Positions 33,669 through 41,443 of a DNA stretch of 49,922 bases are shown here, piece after piece (within the stretch, counting starts at the first letter, position 1; every line of letters begins with the position of its first letter). The position numbers were made by a program, and so were the translations under genes. The DNA is from Chloroflexota bacterium (GTDB lineage: Bacteria > Chloroflexota > Dehalococcoidia > Lucifugimonadales > UBA3495). Below the pieces are notes generated by a model, which worked only from the letters and a program-made list of their open reading frames with translations, had not been told where the DNA came from and did not search any database. Location: contig NZVX01000005.1 of the NCBI GenBank assembly GCA_002698265.1, forward strand, positions 1 through 49,922. The letters are read 5' to 3'.

Positions 33669-34451
33669 CTATTCGTCGTCGTCGTCGTCCTCATCGGGCT
33701 CAGGCGCCGCGTCTTCCCTCTGGGAGGAATAGACCACACCGGGCAGGATGGCGTTGGCCCGGCCGGACTTCTCGGACCCAGCCTTAGGCATGTCCATCAG
33801 ACTCTTTTTCAGCGATTCCAAGACTTCTTTGCCGGCGGAAACGTCCAGAACCAAGGCGTCGATACCCGCCGTGCGCAGGACTTTCAAGTCGTCAGCGCTG
33901 GGCGGTTCGGTAATCTCGGCCAGGAGATACTTGTTCAGGCGTCCGCTGATCCTCGCCACAGTGGCCAGGTCGTCCAAGGTCCAAGAAGATGAGGCGCCGG
34001 ACATAGGAAACAGCACGGCGTCGATAGGCAGAGCGTTGATATCCCGCAATACTTCGATTCCGGTGTCCGGTTCGATGCACAGCACCGTGGCGGACTCTTC
34101 CGATGAAACTGCTCCCATGGCGGTCCCTTTGAGGTGGAACGCCACCACTCCGCTGCCGTCTTCCTCGTAGGCTTTGGCGTCGGCTGTACTCAGGGCGTCG
34201 GTCCTGACGCCCCAGATCACGCCCGACAAGGCATCTTTCAAGTCTTTAACCTGGGCTACGCCACTCAGGCCGGACAAAATGATCCCGTCCGGAGAAACTT
34301 CGGCTGCGGTGGCGGCACCCGCTTTGTGGTCTCCTGAGACTTGGACTATTAAAGCCAGTCCGGGGACCTTTGCGGCCCGGGCGGGTCCGAACCCCATGCG
34401 GGCCGGAGCCCCTTCATTTATCTCATCCAGACGGTCGGTAAACTTACTCAT
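33669..34451 (-). CDS. Protein of unknown function with poly-acidic tail
   Basis: The 260-aa protein is not recognised. It has alternating hydrophobic strands and helices (PGLALIVQVS, GIILSGLSG, IDALVLDVSAG) in the manner of an alpha/beta barrel, and ends in a Pro/Glu run followed by five consecutive Asp. The tail is encoded by a GTC/GAC triplet repeat near 33671-33692 that could vary in length. It is the first gene of the minus-strand cluster ending in the amidohydrolase. Confidence 0.7.
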   Translation of the reverse strand: MSKFTDRLDEINEGAPARMGFGPARAAKVPGLALIVQVSGDHKAGAATAAEVSPDGIILSGLSGVAQVKDLKDALSGVIWGVRTDALSTADAKAYEEDGSGVVAFHLKGTAMGAVSSEESATVLCIEPDTGIEVLRDINALPIDAVLFPMSGASSSWTLDDLATVARISGRLNKYLLAEITEPPSADDLKVLRTAGIDALVLDVSAGKEVLESLKKSLMDMPKAGSEKSGRANAILPGVVYSSQREDAAPEPDEDDDDDE

Positions 34452-34708
34452 TTATCCCAGTCCCTGTAGATTAGGCAGCCTAGTCGGAGGACCAAGCGGA
34501 CAGTGTAATTGATTTCGGAAGAGCGGCCCACGGGCAAAAACCTGCCTTAGTCACGCTCCCGGCTGATTATACTCCATACTCGATTTATCGGGCAGTCCTA
34601 ACCGGTTGATATTCCGTATCCTAGAACCTCTAGGCCCCATTCCGCATCAAATCGACCGGTGGCTAGTCGGACCTGCCATTGGCCTTTATCCTAAAACTTG
34701 GTGAATTC

Positions 34709-35653
34709 ATGGCGATCGAGAAACTAGACCTGATCAAGAACCCGGAGACCGCGCCCTTCTCCAAACTGCAGTATCTCAAGTGGACGCCGGAAGATGAAGT
34801 AACCGAGTTTTTCAACCGCCTGTTCCATCTGAACGTGGCCGCCCGGGAGACCGGGGACTGGTCCGACGTGGACCGTTTCCTGGAAGAGCAGGGGGACTCG
34901 ATCGCGGCTAAGGTCGCGGCCCCCATTGCATTTGACGACACGCCTCGGTCCCCTTTCAAGAAGCGGCTGTCCGAGTCGAAAGTCGCGGTCATGGCCACAG
35001 GCGACGTTTACGTTGAGGGCCAGATTCCCTTCGATACCGATGGCGACTGGAGTTACCGGGAGATTCCCCTGGACACTCCGTTGGACCAGTTGCGGGTCGC
35101 CCACACCCACTACGACACCAACGGCGTTGCCGAGGACGTAGACTCGGTACTGGCCATGCACCGACTGCTGGACATGGAGGCAGAGGGAATGGTGGGCGAG
35201 GCTCTGACGCCGACCTACAGCTTCATGGGCTACATCCCCGACCCGTCGGGCCTGATGGAAGTTACAGGGCCGGAGGTGGCAGGAAGGCTCACGGAAGACG
35301 GGATGGACGGGGCGGTCATCGGCACAACTTGACCCATCTGCAATCAGTCCGGCGGACTGATTGCCCGGGCCATCGAAGCAGCCGGTATCCCCACAGTGGT
35401 GCTCATGGTGCACCGCACCAGGGCCGAGACATTGTCGGTGCCCCGCGGGTTGGTGCTGCGATTACCCTTCGGCCGCCCCTTTGGCGCGCCCGGCAACCCG
35501 GAGCAGCAGCGGGTGGTGTTGGAAGACGCGCTGACGATGCTGGGCTCAGCAAGAGAGCCCGGAGAGATCCGCACCATGCCATACCGTTGGCGCCGGGAAG
35601 ACTACGGCCGCATCCTGACCGAGCGCCACGGAGGCACGTCGGCGGGAATCTAG
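34709..35653 (+). CDS. Probable selenoprotein: GrdB/PrdB-like reductase, Sec208 at in-frame TGA
   Basis: Read through the TGA at 35330-35332, the frame gives 314 aa ending at TAG 35651-35653. It matches the selenoprotein-B (glycine/sarcosine/betaine/D-proline reductase) family in outline: LRVAHTHYDTNGVAEDV, then GYIPDP, then AVIGTT-U-PICNQSGGLIARAIEAAG. Sec208 and Cys211 form UxxC where relatives have CPxC or UxxC. Homologous-looking protein continues directly after the TGA, and a perfect 11-bp hairpin starts 7 nt after it. The ATG at 34709 was chosen over the TTG at 34679; its ribosome site (GGTG) is weak. GrdB/PrdB enzymes cleave C-N bonds reductively; no grdA, grdC or prd partner is nearby, so the substrate is open. 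Alternative: Cys-to-stop mutation. Confidence 0.8.
35340..35364 (+). promoter_or_regulatory. Candidate bacterial SECIS stem-loop
   Basis: Arms 35340-35350 and 35354-35364 are perfectly complementary (11 bp) around loop GGC. The loop begins 18 nt after the TGA and starts with G. This fits the known bacterial SECIS rule of an apical loop about 16-37 nt after UGA with a G near its start. It lies wholly in coding sequence. Confidence 0.72.
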
Positions 35654-35803: not shown

Positions 35804-36589
35804 ATGCTCTTAGCTATAGACATAGGCAACAGCATGGTCAACCTGGGCGTTTTTGACGGTGAACGCCTGGTCGCCAACCTGCGTGTTTCGACGGACGCCA
35901 GGCGCTCCGCCGACGAGTACGGTCTCACACTTCGCGACCTGTTGATGCTGAACGGTGTCGAACTCTCAAGGATCACAGACGTCTGCATGTGCAGCGTCGT
36001 ACCGCCCCTGACCGGTATCTTCGAGGAACTCATCCAGACTTATTTCAAGGTCAATGCTTTGACCGTCACCGCAGGGGTCAAGACTGGCCTGCAGATCAGC
36101 TACGACAACCCTCGGGACGTGGGCGCAGACCGCATCGTGGACGCTGTGGCGGCCATCGAGCTTTACGGCCAACCGACCATCATCGTGGATTTCGGCACAG
36201 CCACGGTGTTCGACGCGATCTCAAGGGACGGCGTTTATCTGGGGGGCGCGATATCGCCGGGGATGAACGTCGCGGCCGAGGCGCTGTACTTAAATACATC
36301 CCAACTGCGGCGTGTGGAACTGGTGGCCCCGGACTCTGCCATTGGCCAAAACACGACCGAAGCGCTGCAGTCGGGGTTGGTGCTGGGCTACGCCGGCTTG
36401 GTCACCGGCATGGTTGCCCGTTTCAAGAAAGAACTGGGGGAGGACGCCAAGGTCGTAGGCACTGGGGGGCTGGCAGACACCATGGCCAGGGTAGCAAACG
36501 TGTTTGACGCCATCAATCCGGACCTGACGCTAATTGGATTGCGCCTGATCTACGGCAAGAACCAACCGCCTCCCAAGGTATTAGACTAA
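35804..36589 (+). CDS. coaX: Type III pantothenate kinase
   Basis: The 261-aa enzyme phosphorylates pantothenate, the first step to coenzyme A. It has the ASKHA-fold motifs AIDIGNSMVNLGVF (phosphate 1), GADRIVDAVAA, IIVDFGTATVFDAI and GGAISPGMN. CoaX enzymes need a monovalent cation and are not inhibited by CoA. The stop lies 4 nt before coaBC, so the two steps are made together. It has its own promoter. Confidence 0.96.
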   Translation: MLLAIDIGNSMVNLGVFDGERLVANLRVSTDARRSADEYGLTLRDLLMLNGVELSRITDVCMCSVVPPLTGIFEELIQTYFKVNALTVTAGVKTGLQISYDNPRDVGADRIVDAVAAIELYGQPTIIVDFGTATVFDAISRDGVYLGGAISPGMNVAAEALYLNTSQLRRVELVAPDSAIGQNTTEALQSGLVLGYAGLVTGMVARFKKELGEDAKVVGTGGLADTMARVANVFDAINPDLTLIGLRLIYGKNQPPPKVLD

Positions 36590-36593
36590 CCCC

Positions 36594-37790
36594 ATGGCCG
36601 GAGCGCTAACGGATAAACACGTAGTCCTGGGGGTCACTGGGAGCATCGCCTGCTACAAGGCGTTGGACCTGGCCAGCAAACTGATGCAGGCCGGGGCCTT
36701 GGTGGACACCATCATGAGCTACGGCGCCACCCAGTTCGTCACGCCCCTGGCCTTCCGCAGTATCACCCACCGGGCGGTGGTGACCGACTCCTTTGACCCC
36801 GACTCCGAATACAGCGTTGAGCATGTGGCCCTGGCCCAGCAGGCCGACGTTATCGTCGTGGCCCCCGCCACCGTCCACTGCATCGCCAAGCTTGCCCTGG
36901 GGTTGGCAGACGACCCTCTGACGACAACGATAGTGGCCGCCAAATGCCCATTAGTGGTCGCGCCGGCCATGGACGGCAACATGTATGACCATCCAGCCAC
37001 CCAAGCCAACCTGGCCACGTTGCAAAAGCGTGGGGTGGTCATCGCTGGACCCGGCACAGGAAGGCTGGCATCGGGACTGACCGGTGTGGGCCGGTTGCTG
37101 GAAACCCCTGAACTACTGGGGCACATCTCCTACGCCATAGGAAAAAACGGCGACCTGGCTGGAAAGACCGTCGTGGTCAGCGCCGGGGGCACCATGGAGC
37201 CCATAGACCCGGTGCGGGTGATCACCAACCACTCCTCGGGCAAGATGGGTTACGCACTGGCCGAGGCCGCCCGCGACCGAGGCGCCGACGTGGTGCTGGT
37301 GACCGCACCGACCAGCCTGCCCGAACCCGCATTGATGAAGGTGGTGCAAGTCCGAACCGCGGAACAGATGTGGCAGGCCATCCAGAGCCATTTGAAAAAA
37401 GCCGATGCGCTGATAATGGCCGCCGCCGTGGCTGATTACCGTCCGACCGAGGCCGCCGATCAGAAGATCAAAAAGGCGGACGACGACCTAAGCATCTCTC
37501 TAGCCAAGACCACTGACATCCTGAAATCAGCCAAAGGTGATTTCGTGCGTGTGGGATTTGCCGCCGAAAGCCAGAACCTGGTGGAGAACGCCAAGGCCAA
37601 GGTCGGCAGCAAACAACTGGACCTGATCGTGGCCAACGACATCACCGCCGAGGGCAGCGGTTTCGGCTCCGACACCAACAAAGTCACCCTGATCGACCGA
37701 GAACTGGCGGTCGAAGAACTCCCCTTGCTTAGCAAATACGACGTCAGCAACCGGATACTGGACCGGGTGAAGCGACTGTTCCGGGACTGA
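36594..37790 (+). CDS. coaBC: Phosphopantothenoylcysteine synthetase/decarboxylase
   Basis: The 398-aa bifunctional enzyme adds Cys to phosphopantothenate and then decarboxylates it. The N-terminal flavoprotein (CoaC, about residues 1-185) has GSIACYKALDLASKL, the catalytic His in SVEHVAL, and PAMDGNMYDHPATQ, the Asp form of the PAMN motif. The C-terminal CoaB part has SAGGTMEPIDPVRVITNHSSGKMG and the VAAVADYRP motif near residue 280. Together with coaX it covers the middle of CoA synthesis. Confidence 0.97.
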   Translation: MAGALTDKHVVLGVTGSIACYKALDLASKLMQAGALVDTIMSYGATQFVTPLAFRSITHRAVVTDSFDPDSEYSVEHVALAQQADVIVVAPATVHCIAKLALGLADDPLTTTIVAAKCPLVVAPAMDGNMYDHPATQANLATLQKRGVVIAGPGTGRLASGLTGVGRLLETPELLGHISYAIGKNGDLAGKTVVVSAGGTMEPIDPVRVITNHSSGKMGYALAEAARDRGADVVLVTAPTSLPEPALMKVVQVRTAEQMWQAIQSHLKKADALIMAAAVADYRPTEAADQKIKKADDDLSISLAKTTDILKSAKGDFVRVGFAAESQNLVENAKAKVGSKQLDLIVANDITAEGSGFGSDTNKVTLIDRELAVEELPLLSKYDVSNRILDRVKRLFRD

Positions 37791-38033: not shown

Positions 38034-38900
38034 CTACCCCGACACTGTCTCCTTAAAGCGTCGAATCGCCTCTATGTGCTGGTCCGGGCCTTGGAGGCCG
38101 GCCTTCATGGTGTTCACCGAGAGGTGGGTGGCGCCCGCTTCGTCCCAGGCGGCGGCCATCTTTTCCCAGGTGCTCTGGTCGTCAGCGGCGTAGGATATGC
38201 GACCCTCGATGCCGATGGCCTTGGGGTCGCGTCCGGCTTTGGTGGCGTACTCATGCATCTGAGCCAGTTTCTCTTGACCCGCGCTGTCGGGCTGGAACTG
38301 GGGAAACCAGCCGTCTGCCATCTTGCCGATGCGCCGGATGACCCGTTCCTCGCCGCCACCCAGCCAGATGGGGATGGGCCGTTGCACCGGCAGGGGATTG
38401 ATGCCGGCGTTGGTGACCTTGTGGTACCGGCCGTCAAAGTCCACCGATTCCTGGGTCCACAGCAGGCGCAACAACTCGATCTGCTCCTCGCTGCGCCGGC
38501 CTCGGTTGGAGAAACTCTCGCCCAAGGCTTCGTACTCGACCTCATTCCAGCCGATGCCGATGCCGAGACGCAGGCGGCCTCCAGTCAGCACATCTACCTC
38601 TGCCGCCTGTTTGGCCACCAGGCTAGTCTGACGCTGCCCGAGGATCAGCACGCCGGTGGTGAACTCAATCTTCTCGGTGATGGCGCCCAGATAGCCGAAC
38701 ATCACGAAGGGCTCGTGGAACATGTCGTTCTTGTTATAGGGCCGGTCCCAGCCGTCCCTCTTTGTGTGGTCGGCGCCCAACACGTGGTCAAACACCAGGA
38801 TATGCTCGTAACCCAAGTCCTCGGCGGCCTGGGCGAAGTCCTTAACCGCGGACGGGTCCGCGCCGATCTCAGTCTGCGGGAATATAGCTCCTAATCGCAT
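38034..38900 (-). CDS. LLM-class F420-dependent oxidoreductase
   Basis: The 288-aa protein has LGAIFPQTEIG at strand 1, ILVFDHVLGADH, GVLILGQRQTSLVAKQAAEVD, GIGIGWNEVEYEALG and PIWLGGG. This resembles the TIGR03619-type F420-dependent group. The ATG has GGGAGG 5 nt upstream, and the promoter at 38948-38976 is well formed. The gene stands alone and its substrate is unknown. Confidence 0.9.
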   Translation of the reverse strand: MRLGAIFPQTEIGADPSAVKDFAQAAEDLGYEHILVFDHVLGADHTKRDGWDRPYNKNDMFHEPFVMFGYLGAITEKIEFTTGVLILGQRQTSLVAKQAAEVDVLTGGRLRLGIGIGWNEVEYEALGESFSNRGRRSEEQIELLRLLWTQESVDFDGRYHKVTNAGINPLPVQRPIPIWLGGGEERVIRRIGKMADGWFPQFQPDSAGQEKLAQMHEYATKAGRDPKAIGIEGRISYAADDQSTWEKMAAAWDEAGATHLSVNTMKAGLQGPDQHIEAIRRFKETVSG

Positions 38901-38947
38901 GCCAGCCTCCCATCGTGTTTCAGCAATATCGTCGTCAATTCACGCCC

Positions 38948-38976
38948 AGTATCCAAGTTTGATCAGGCTGCGTCAA
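38948..38976 (-). promoter_or_regulatory. Promoter of the 38.0-kb LLM gene
   Basis: On the minus strand TTGACG (38976-38971) and GATACT (38953-38948) are 17 nt apart. It lies next to the acetamidase promoter, giving a compact divergent control region. Confidence 0.6.
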
Positions 38977-38983
38977 CCGCCGG

Positions 38984-39011
38984 TTGGTTTTCCCTTTTCT
39001 TGGTCTATAAT
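38984..39011 (+). promoter_or_regulatory. Promoter of the acetamidase/formamidase gene
   Basis: TTGGTT (38984-38989) and TATAAT (39006-39011) are 16 nt apart. The start near 39018 leaves a short leader before ATG 39054. Confidence 0.55.
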
Positions 39012-39053
39012 GCGTGGACTTTCGAACGCGCACAGTCAGATGGGAGGAAACGG

Positions 39054-40163
39054 ATGAAAAGCATCGAGCTAGATTACTCCAAACGTTGCGGGGAAGAACC
39101 TAATAAGGGCCACAACCGCTGGCATCCTGACATACCCCCAGTGGTCGAAGCGGACCCGGGCGAAGACGTGGTGATGCAGACCAGGCACGCCTTCGACGGC
39201 CAGATCACGCCCACCACCATCGCCGACGACCTGCTGGGCACTGACCTCGGCTTGGTCCACCCTCTCACCGGTCCGGTCTTCGTGAAAGGGGCCGAGCCGG
39301 GCGACCTGCTGGAAGTGACGATCCAGCACATCGAGCCGGCCCATTGGGGCTTCACCAGCATCCTGCCGGGGTTCGGGTTCCTTAGGGACGTCTTCACCGA
39401 GCCGTATCTGGTGCATTGGGAGATGAACGACGGGTTCGCGCGGTCATCACAATTGCCGGGCGTGGCCATCCCCGAGGCATCATTCATGGGGACCATCGGC
39501 GTGGCCCCGTCCCGCGCCCTGCGGCAGGAGATCCTGCTCCGGGAAGACGAACTGCTGCGACGGGGCGGCATGGTGGTAGGCCCAACGCCCGAGGGCGCTG
39601 TCCCAGCCCAGGAGCCCTTCGCTAGCGAGGGGCTCCGGACCATCCCGCCAAGAGAGCACGGCGGAAACATGGACATCAAGCAGCTAACCGCCGGTACGAG
39701 GCTGATGCTGCCGGTATTCACCGAGGGCGCTCTATTCTCGGCCGGCGACGCCCATTATGCCCAAGGCGACTCCGAGTGCTGCGGCACTGCTGTGGAGATG
39801 GACTGCACGCTGCACGTGAGTTTTCGACCCCTGAAAGGGGAGGCCGCGCGCCGCGGCATCCGCTTCCCGATCTTCGAGCGGGACGAGTACTTCACCAGCC
39901 CCGAGATGGCGGCCCCCAGGCGTTTCATCGCCGCAACCGGTATGTGCATCTCCAGTGACGGCGTGAACCAGTCCGAGGACGGCACCCTGGCGTCGCGTAA
40001 TGCGCTCTTGAACATAATTCAACTGCTGATGGAAAGAGGCTGGTCAAGAGAGCAGGCTTACTGCATCTGTAGCGTGGCCGTTGACCTGAAGGTCAGCGAA
40101 GTGGTGGACGTACCCAATTTCGTGGTTTCCGCCTTCCTGCCTCTGGATATCTTTGAGGACTGA
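39054..40163 (+). CDS. Acetamidase/formamidase family protein
   Basis: The 369-aa protein matches the FmdA/AmdA family (PF03069). Visible blocks are HPDIPPVVEADPGEDVVMQTRHAFDGQ, LVHPLTGPVFVKGAEPGDLLEV, GGNMDIKQLTAG, LPVFTEGALFSAGDAHYAQGD and the C-terminal VSVAVDLKVSEVVDVPN-like stretch. It would hydrolyse small amides to acid and ammonia. ATG 39054 has GGGAGGAAA 5 nt upstream; the frame extends back to 39000, but that overlaps the promoter. Confidence 0.93.
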   Translation: MKSIELDYSKRCGEEPNKGHNRWHPDIPPVVEADPGEDVVMQTRHAFDGQITPTTIADDLLGTDLGLVHPLTGPVFVKGAEPGDLLEVTIQHIEPAHWGFTSILPGFGFLRDVFTEPYLVHWEMNDGFARSSQLPGVAIPEASFMGTIGVAPSRALRQEILLREDELLRRGGMVVGPTPEGAVPAQEPFASEGLRTIPPREHGGNMDIKQLTAGTRLMLPVFTEGALFSAGDAHYAQGDSECCGTAVEMDCTLHVSFRPLKGEAARRGIRFPIFERDEYFTSPEMAAPRRFIAATGMCISSDGVNQSEDGTLASRNALLNIIQLLMERGWSREQAYCICSVAVDLKVSEVVDVPNFVVSAFLPLDIFED

Positions 40164-40261
40164 CCGATTCACCTGCGCATTCCACGATGCGCTATACTCA
40201 CGCCGAATACGGTTGCGTGCCGGTGAAAGACAATGGATAGACGACAGAAAGGAGCAATCAC

Positions 40262-41443
40262 ATGAAATTCGGACTGCTATTTGAGATGCAGCGCCCCTAC
40301 GAAGGCACTGACATCGACTGGAATGCCCTGTACCGGGAAACTCTGGATCAGTGCGAACTGGCCGACCAGGTGGGATTCGACAACCTCTGGTTCGTGGAGC
40401 ACCACTTCTTATTCGGGTTCTCCGGGTCGCCCTGTCCTGAGGTCATGTTCGGCGCACTCAGCCAACGCACCAAGAACATTCGCATTGGCTTTGGAGTGTC
40501 AGTCCTACCCAACCACCATCCCATCCGGGTGGCGGAACGGGTGGCTATGGTAGACCAGCTCACCAACGGCCGGGTGGAATTCGGTACCGGCCGCTCCAAC
40601 GCCTACGAACAGGTGGGCCAGGGCATCGACCCCCGGGAGACCAGGGAGCGATGGGAAGAGGCGATCGAGATGATCCCTCAGATATGGCAGTCAGAAGAGT
40701 TCTCCTGGGAAGGCAAATTTTGGAACGTCCCAGCACGGCGGGTGCTGCCCAAACCCTTCCAGAAACCCCACCCCCGCATGTACCTCGCCTGCACGCAGAC
40801 AGAGAGCTTCCGGTTGGCTGCCCAGAAGGGTATCGGCGTGTTGTCGTCCGCATCGTACGCCGTGGATATCCTCAAAGAGCACGTGAAAGTCTACCGGGAC
40901 GCCATCAAGGATGCCGACCCGGTTGGCGCCGAGATCAACGATTACTGGGCCAACAACGTCCACTCATTCTGCAGCAAGGACGACCAGGCCGCCAAGGAGC
41001 TTTGCGCCGAGTCCATGAAGACGTTTTTCGGGCCGGATAAGCCCTATATCCAAGGCCGCATCAACGCCTACGAGGAGTTGTTGGAGTCCTGGGGCGGCGT
41101 CCCGGACAACCTGAAGGCGGACTTCGGCCGCTGGCTGCGCCAGTCAGACGATGAACACAAGACTCAGGCGGCGGAGGCCGGGATCTCCCTGGACTCCGGA
41201 CCCGGCGCTGCCCGGGCCGCCGTGGCTGAACTAGACGCAAATATCCTGTCCGACCGGGGCGTCATCATCGCCGGCAACCCTGAAAGTTGCATCAATACCA
41301 TCAAGACCTATGAAGACGTCGGCGTCGACCAGGTCATGCTGATCATGCAGACGGAGACCATCCCCCACGACCAGGTGATGGAATCCATCGAACTGTACGG
41401 CAAAGAGGTGATCCCAGCATTCGCGGACGCCAAGGTCGCTTAA
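40262..41443 (+). CDS. LLM-class flavin-dependent oxidoreductase (bacterial luciferase-like)
   Basis: The 393-aa protein is longer than the other three LLM enzymes here and resembles the alkanal-monooxygenase-like group: KFGLLFEMQRPY at strand 1, LWFVEHHFLFGFSGSPCPEVMFG, GFGVSVLPNHHPIRVAERVAMVD and FGTGRSNAYEQ. AAAGGAG lies about 8 nt before the ATG. A TATACT box at 40193-40198 may be its -10. It follows the acetamidase gene by 98 nt and could act with it, for example oxidising an N-compound before amide cleavage; this link is only positional. Confidence 0.92.
   Translation: MKFGLLFEMQRPYEGTDIDWNALYRETLDQCELADQVGFDNLWFVEHHFLFGFSGSPCPEVMFGALSQRTKNIRIGFGVSVLPNHHPIRVAERVAMVDQLTNGRVEFGTGRSNAYEQVGQGIDPRETRERWEEAIEMIPQIWQSEEFSWEGKFWNVPARRVLPKPFQKPHPRMYLACTQTESFRLAAQKGIGVLSSASYAVDILKEHVKVYRDAIKDADPVGAEINDYWANNVHSFCSKDDQAAKELCAESMKTFFGPDKPYIQGRINAYEELLESWGGVPDNLKADFGRWLRQSDDEHKTQAAEAGISLDSGPGAARAAVAELDANILSDRGVIIAGNPESCINTIKTYEDVGVDQVMLIMQTETIPHDQVMESIELYGKEVIPAFADAKVA

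Follow-up and report, generated by a model that had tools for sequence, protein, structure and literature searches.

The gene at 34709-35653 of the window, which is the whole 49,922-nucleotide stretch of DNA analysed here, almost certainly encodes a selenoprotein. On sequence evidence, its in-frame TGA at 35330-35332 is read as selenocysteine (Sec208) in the motif U-P-I-C. As judged by sequence profiles, the protein is related to clostridial PrdB, yet it is not PrdB itself. The overall explanation considered probable is a selenol-based reductase of the GrdB/PrdB superfamily, with the UGA read by SelA/SelB/SelC/SelD and a bSECIS, and with the enzyme working without PrdA. PrdB-type UxxC selenoproteins are already known from seawater DNA surveys. 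The host, the complete Sec machinery of its lineage, the phylum-wide Sec/Cys/SECIS evidence and the partner-less subfamily are new.

The reading frame passes through one TGA codon

The frame was read on the forward strand from ATG at 34709 to TAG at 35651-35653 and gives 314 aa. The TGA is codon 208 and the sole internal stop. The original prediction that the frame runs past the TGA to the TAG was confirmed, with 106 sense codons between them and no further stop. Standard gene calling truncates such genes at TGA; here, without recoding, ordinary calling gives an ORF of 217 aa with a TTG start at 34679 and its end at 35332.

Table 1 Features of the selenoprotein gene and its neighbours in the window.
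Feature	Position	Strand	Basis
PrdB-like selenoprotein CDS, 314 aa	34709..35653	+	Open through one TGA; orthologues in congeners; purifying selection on both sides
N-terminal helical region, residues 1-72, subfamily-specific	34709..34924	+	Alignment and structure model
PrdB/GrdB-like catalytic core, residues 68-296	34910..35596	+	TIGR04483 157 bits, PF07355 24.2 bits
Selenocysteine codon TGA, residue 208	35330..35332	+	Only TGA or TGC/TGT among 64 relatives; alignment column invariant
Cys211, putative resolving cysteine of UxxC	35339..35341	+	C211 invariant among 40 sequences
bSECIS-type hairpin	35340..35364	+	Folding energy, covariation, published model
coaX (type III pantothenate kinase) and coaBC, neighbours outside the system	35804..37790	+	Adjacent in congeners, not in other genera
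Divergent 260-aa protein, neighbour outside the system	33669..34451	-	Conserved neighbour within genus; no Pfam match

The window copy departs from its relatives at two residues. Residue 80 is R in place of W (W80R), at a site that is mostly aromatic and strongly conserved elsewhere, and residue 99 is D in place of the G found in all 39 other aligned sequences (G99D). Its tree tip is also longer than those of its nearest relatives. These features possibly reflect a sequence or assembly error, or mild relaxation or degradation of this copy. Both substitutions fall within 34946-35005 of the window.

Codon 208 is either TGA or a cysteine codon

Orthologues with 76-90% identity were found in 7 of the 11 other genomes of the genus, each with TGA at the same codon, and a chance frame is therefore ruled out. 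In a set of 60 related genomes, 41 gave matches, and TGA was present in every match whose alignment spans residue 208. Among 64 related Chloroflexota sequences, the codon at the Sec site was TGA in 57, TGC in 6 and TGT in 1, with no other codon. Pooled over the genus, pN/pS was 0.186 for the part upstream of the TGA and 0.133 for the part downstream; by these ratios, purifying selection acts on both sides. A loss of conservation after the TGA, which would have spoken against selenocysteine, was not found in the close relatives examined. The TGA takes the first position of a UxxC redox motif (U208-P-I-C211), as had been proposed.

The Cys homologues (TAGCPLCHR...) are from large-genome Chloroflexota and form one clade in the tree (L161-L164, L169-L171). 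They share the same core, with CPLC in place of UPIC. Unlike the subfamily, they carry Cys and have neither the SECIS hairpin nor the N-terminal region. The Sec site is identified by this Sec/Cys pair, UPIC in the subfamily and CPLC in the Cys proteins. The clade apparently reflects a single Sec/Cys switch. One large-genome Chloroflexota genome with the Cys form (G376) holds both Sec and Cys copies. A UAG-encoded Sec in a TAG-containing relative from this genome was considered and rejected, the protein being a Cys protein and TAG its normal stop.

If the TGA were a true stop or a nonsense mutation, the product would be a 207-aa protein or a pseudogene, with unrelated sequence downstream. The alterations of the window copy at conserved sites agree with such a reading; however, TGA is retained in all 57 non-Cys relatives, the low pN/pS continues after it, and the Cys homologues read through the site with the same motif.

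A bSECIS-type hairpin follows the codon

The hairpin has an 11-bp stem (35340-35350 with 35354-35364) and the loop GGC at 35351-35353, 18 nt after the TGA. Its energy is -21.7 kcal/mol, with a z value of -3.15 against dinucleotide shuffles and -3.65 against synonymous recoding. The published bSECIS model describes a loop of 3-9 nt with G within the first two positions, an upper stem of 4-16 bp, a distance of 16-37 nt from the UGA and an MFE of -7.5 or lower (PMC13188914). The hairpin lies within all of these constraints.

In the 51 distinct Sec windows, pairing at the six core positions was seen in 98.7% of cells, and in 6-44% when slid; the seven Cys homologues keep only 2-4 of the 6. The loops in the Sec windows are mostly G(G/U)N. 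Some pairs had changed on both sides of the stem in a compensatory manner, such as from G-C to C-G or from U-A to G-C. Within the subfamily alone covariation is scarce, so it is the wider family that supplies the compensatory evidence. By this comparison, Sec members have a covarying bSECIS hairpin after the TGA and the Cys homologues have none, and the covariation also argues against a true stop. The original assignment of residue 208 as Sec is thus upheld by the TGA-or-Cys-only column, the selection after the TGA and the hairpin.

Selenocysteine machinery in the host lineage

The host is a SAR202-cluster Chloroflexota MAG with a completeness of 78.5%. Its nearest named relatives are SAR202-cluster/Dehalococcoidia/Chloroflexi MAGs, five of them at 80-91% identity, in agreement with the Chloroflexota origin first suggested. 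Of 400 genomes sampled from across the phylum, 92 contain the family.

Searches of the contigs of this MAG found no SelA, SelB or tRNA-Sec. The SelB-model matches were rejected as EF-Tu and other GTPases, and the weak tRNA-Sec matches were rejected too, since ARAGORN identified them as ordinary tRNAs for Ser, Arg and Tyr. SelD was found at 6099-7019 of contig C84, itself with an in-frame TGA. In the relatives, SelB was above cut-off in 52 of 60 genomes (9 of 11 congeners) and tRNA-Sec was found in 50 of 60 (8 of 11 congeners). Similarly, SelA was above cut-off in 35 of 40 genomes and SelD in 38 of 40, with selA in 9 and selD in all 11 of the 11 congeners. In three congeners ARAGORN reported tRNA-SeC with anticodon TCA. 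Like that of the host, most SelD genes detected in the relatives contain an in-frame TGA.

Contig C53 of the host aligns with the region around selB in congener G003 up to C53 position 29239, and C53 (29244 bases) ends inside the gene following selB. Because C53 ends beside selB and the congeners carry the genes, the missing selA, selB and tRNA-Sec are best explained by MAG incompleteness. The original prediction had named an absence of selB, selC and selD from a complete genome as a ground for rejection. In this incomplete MAG selB and selC were indeed not found, but selD is present, and with all four genes in congeners the absence is not refuting. The MAG taken alone, without selA, selB and tRNA-Sec, would agree with a true stop at codon 208; against this stand its own selD, carrying its own TGA, and the contig break that falls at selB. 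The true-stop reading is very improbable and already contradicted.

A general change of the code, with UGA standing for Trp or some other amino acid, would also account for one TGA read through in this gene, but it has a negligible probability and is likewise already contradicted. On three contigs of the host, 19 of the 75 predicted genes that encode 150 aa or more end with TGA, and this use of TGA as an ordinary stop indicates no global reassignment of UGA. The homologues carry Cys, never Trp, at site 208, and tRNA-Sec and SelB are found in congeners.

In four relatives (G004, G005, G007 and G012), tRNA-Sec lies at a contig end or no more than about 500 bases from one. Given selB and tRNA-Sec near contig ends, the Sec machinery may be under-counted in SAR202 MAGs.

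Relationship to PrdB and GrdB

The nearest NCBIfam family is TIGR04483 (PrdB), with 157 bits against a cut-off of 300, residues 68-296 aligning to profile positions 9-236. Other Chloroflexota members score 164-202 bits. PF07355 (GRDB) gives 24.2 bits, just above its gathering score of 22. These two scores support the GrdB/PrdB relationship that had been proposed for comparison with PF07355. The NCBIfam models for GrdB all score under their cut-offs; TIGR01918 (GrdB) gives 44.1 bits against a cut-off of 65.45 and covers residues 62-264 only, short of the full-length GrdB architecture.

The likeness to PrdB, the 26-kDa selenoprotein subunit of clostridial D-proline reductase, extends over a core of about 230 aa that aligns along almost its whole length, with Sec in UxxC and, presumably, a selenolate nucleophile and a resolving Cys. 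The protein is nevertheless not PrdB, because its score is below the 300-bit equivalog cut-off, it has an extra N-terminal helical region of 72 residues, and PrdA and PrdC are not linked to it at the locus. The host, a marine Chloroflexota, also differs. With GrdB/GrdF/GrdH, the selenoprotein B of glycine/sarcosine/betaine reductase (PF07355, TIGR01918), the homologous part is the C-terminal half with the Sec site. Unlike these proteins, the present one is without the N-terminal GrdB half, scores below the TIGR01918 cut-off and has UPIC where they have STUG.

In the tree, the subfamily of 15 rows forms one branch against the Cys clade with support 100; L109 and L110 are drawn apart at the unresolved root. 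The tree sets the subfamily apart from a C-terminally extended line (including a second host gene, C99:2471), a line with the UPxCHRS motif and the Cys clade. The N-terminal region of about 72 residues is common to the 15 members in the alignment and is reduced or absent in other relatives. Besides the start M, R117, H132, D143, M173, G174, U/C208, C211, E223, G226, R246, G255 and G259 are invariant in 40 sequences.

AlphaFold2 was used to predict the structure, with pLDDT 87 and pTM 0.82. In the model, residue 208 lies between strand 201-205 and helix 209-224, and the N-terminal region has helices at 18-25, 28-48 and 52-69. Foldseek against the PDB gave no match with E <= 0.001, and there was no thioredoxin or peroxiredoxin among the matches listed. 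Sequence searches of the PDB gave no significant relative.

Partner subunits and gene neighbourhood

At the locus, no PrdA/GrdE-type pyruvoyl gene (PF09338) was found, and the flanking genes include no PrdC or proline racemase (PrdF). The subfamily is found in 14 of the 60 genomes, and only two of these, the host (G000) and G005, have PF09338; the other 12, including genomes of 93-98% completeness, gave no PF09338 match. From these genome sequences, the subfamily usually exists without a detectable pyruvoyl subunit.

The PF09338 gene of the host belongs to a cluster at 5138-9321 of contig C8 (L017), in which grdC (reverse strand), grdE and grdB (both forward) lie side by side. The GrdB of this cluster, the real GrdB of the genome, has a TGA read-through in a STUG motif, and its grdC is divergent, with 673.7 bits against a cut-off of 450. 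By gene content, the cluster is a glycine/sarcosine/betaine-reductase-type system in a SAR202 genome. The original claim that grd and prd partners are lacking thus holds for the locus and not for the genome.

The selenoprotein could also be the Sec subunit of a two-component reductase, with an activating subunit encoded elsewhere and too divergent for PF09338. Clostridial PrdB and GrdB act with PrdA/GrdE-type partners (PMC3091704), and the host does have a PF09338 gene on C8. That gene, however, adjoins its own grdB, 12 of the 14 subfamily genomes have no match, and the neighbours of the selenoprotein gene differ between genera. A two-component arrangement is accordingly rated improbable.

The neighbourhood is conserved only within the genus (260-aa protein gene on one side, coaX-coaBC on the other), so the context names no substrate, and gene neighbourhood was dropped as a guide to function. 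Outside the genus, the neighbours are Uma2, DUF1800/DUF1501, luciferase-like or amidohydrolase genes. Over the subfamily loci, the flanking genes include coaX/coaBC, M50 peptidase and amidohydrolase. No conserved operon pointing to a substrate or electron donor was found in the genera compared. Further along the window, at 38034-41443, an acetamidase/formamidase (FmdA) gene lies between two genes for luciferase-like monooxygenases; these are unrelated to the selenoprotein.

Proposed mechanism

In clostridial PrdB, the selenolate is proposed to attack the alpha carbon of pyruvoyl-bound D-proline to give a selenoether, which a PrdB cysteine cleaves to a selenide-sulphide that PrdC reduces (PMC3091704). 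For the GrdB-like selenoprotein FarB, an attack on the C-F bond of fluoroacetate was proposed (PMC10838667). FarB is a precedent for GrdB-type Sec chemistry on non-amino-acid substrates, but its gene is accompanied by those for the GrdE-like partner FarE, a transporter and a radical-SAM oxidoreductase (PMC10838667), and no such operon is present here.

By analogy, PrdB/GrdB-type reductive chemistry without PrdA is slightly favoured for the present protein. The UGA would be read through by the standard bacterial SelA/SelB/SelC/SelD machinery with the bSECIS directly after the codon. Sec208 would sit at the start of a helix after the central beta strand of a Rossmann-like alpha/beta core. Its selenolate would attack the C-N or C-X bond of an electrophilic small organic substrate, as proposed for PrdB, GrdB and FarB. 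Cys211 would then resolve the product by forming a selenenylsulfide, to be reduced perhaps by thioredoxin or another general thiol system. Since PrdA-type subunits are missing, the substrate would be activated by the protein itself and not through a pyruvoyl Schiff base, with R117, H132, D143 and E223 as candidate residues; the enzyme would therefore not be a D-proline reductase.

The main rival is a selenol peroxidase, a selenoprotein that detoxifies peroxides or electrophiles instead of cleaving an organic substrate reductively. In its favour, the protein keeps the UxxC redox pair while the pyruvoyl partner is absent, SAR202 is largely marine, and clostridial GrdB was reported with peroxidase activity, according to the title of a reference in PMC3091704. 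The invariant R117, H132, D143 and E223, however, suggest that the protein has a substrate site as well as the redox pair, the fold matches listed contain no peroxiredoxin or thioredoxin, and PrdB is the closest protein. A peroxidase is thus unlikely, and reductive chemistry is preferred.

More broadly, and only tentatively, the subfamily may belong to a branch of the proline/glycine reductase selenoenzymes that acts as a single component and needs no pyruvoyl group. Several paralogous lines of this branch, spread over SAR202 and other Chloroflexota, would each attack a different organic compound reductively. If so, a largely marine group known for the oxidative breakdown of dissolved organic matter (DOM) would have an unrecognised selenium-dependent reductive arm.

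Relation to marine PrdB-type selenoproteins

PrdB selenoproteins with UxxC ranked with the commonest selenoprotein families both in the Sargasso Sea, with 42 genes (2005, PMC1088965), and in the GOS metagenomes, with 235 Sec and 110 Cys forms (2008, PMC2398784). As described in the available text of these surveys, the marine 'Proline reductase PrdB' is, like the present protein, of the Pfam07355/PrdB type with UxxC and with Sec commoner than Cys. Most likely, the two are the same broad family. The survey sequences differ in being metagenome fragments without host, genome context or partner analysis in that text, and no host lineage was found named there. The original view of an uncharacterised reductase system therefore stands in part: PrdB-type UxxC selenoproteins are already among the commonest marine families, but their owner and a tested function are not given in the available text of PMC1088965 and PMC2398784. 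No link to Chloroflexota was found in two reviews. A literature search pairing SAR202 with selenoprotein found nothing, and two SAR202 genome papers were without mention of selenium, which is not proof of absence.

An enzyme of proline fermentation makes little sense in oxic plankton, though PrdB-type selenoproteins are abundant at sea. The present analysis ties marine PrdB-type genes to SAR202 and other Chloroflexota, with complete Sec machinery in related genomes, and the subfamily usually does without the pyruvoyl subunit, the hallmark of the clostridial enzymes. The role of the marine 'PrdB' is now testable with one gene, and cultivation of SAR202 has been reported (PMC10444878).

Further GrdB/PrdB-type genes in SAR202 genomes

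The selenoprotein had been described as a lone Sec copy, which the genome contradicts: two further GrdB/PrdB-type genes, each with an in-frame TGA, bring the Sec genes of this kind to three. Apart from the grdB on C8, a second stand-alone PrdB-like Sec gene lies at 2411-3607 of contig C99 (L016). It encodes 399 aa with a UPAC motif and a C-terminal extension of about 150 aa, and its relatives are found in many genomes of the family. As many as six GrdB/PrdB-type genes occur in single SAR202 relatives (G013, G029), and almost all of these genes contain an in-frame TGA.
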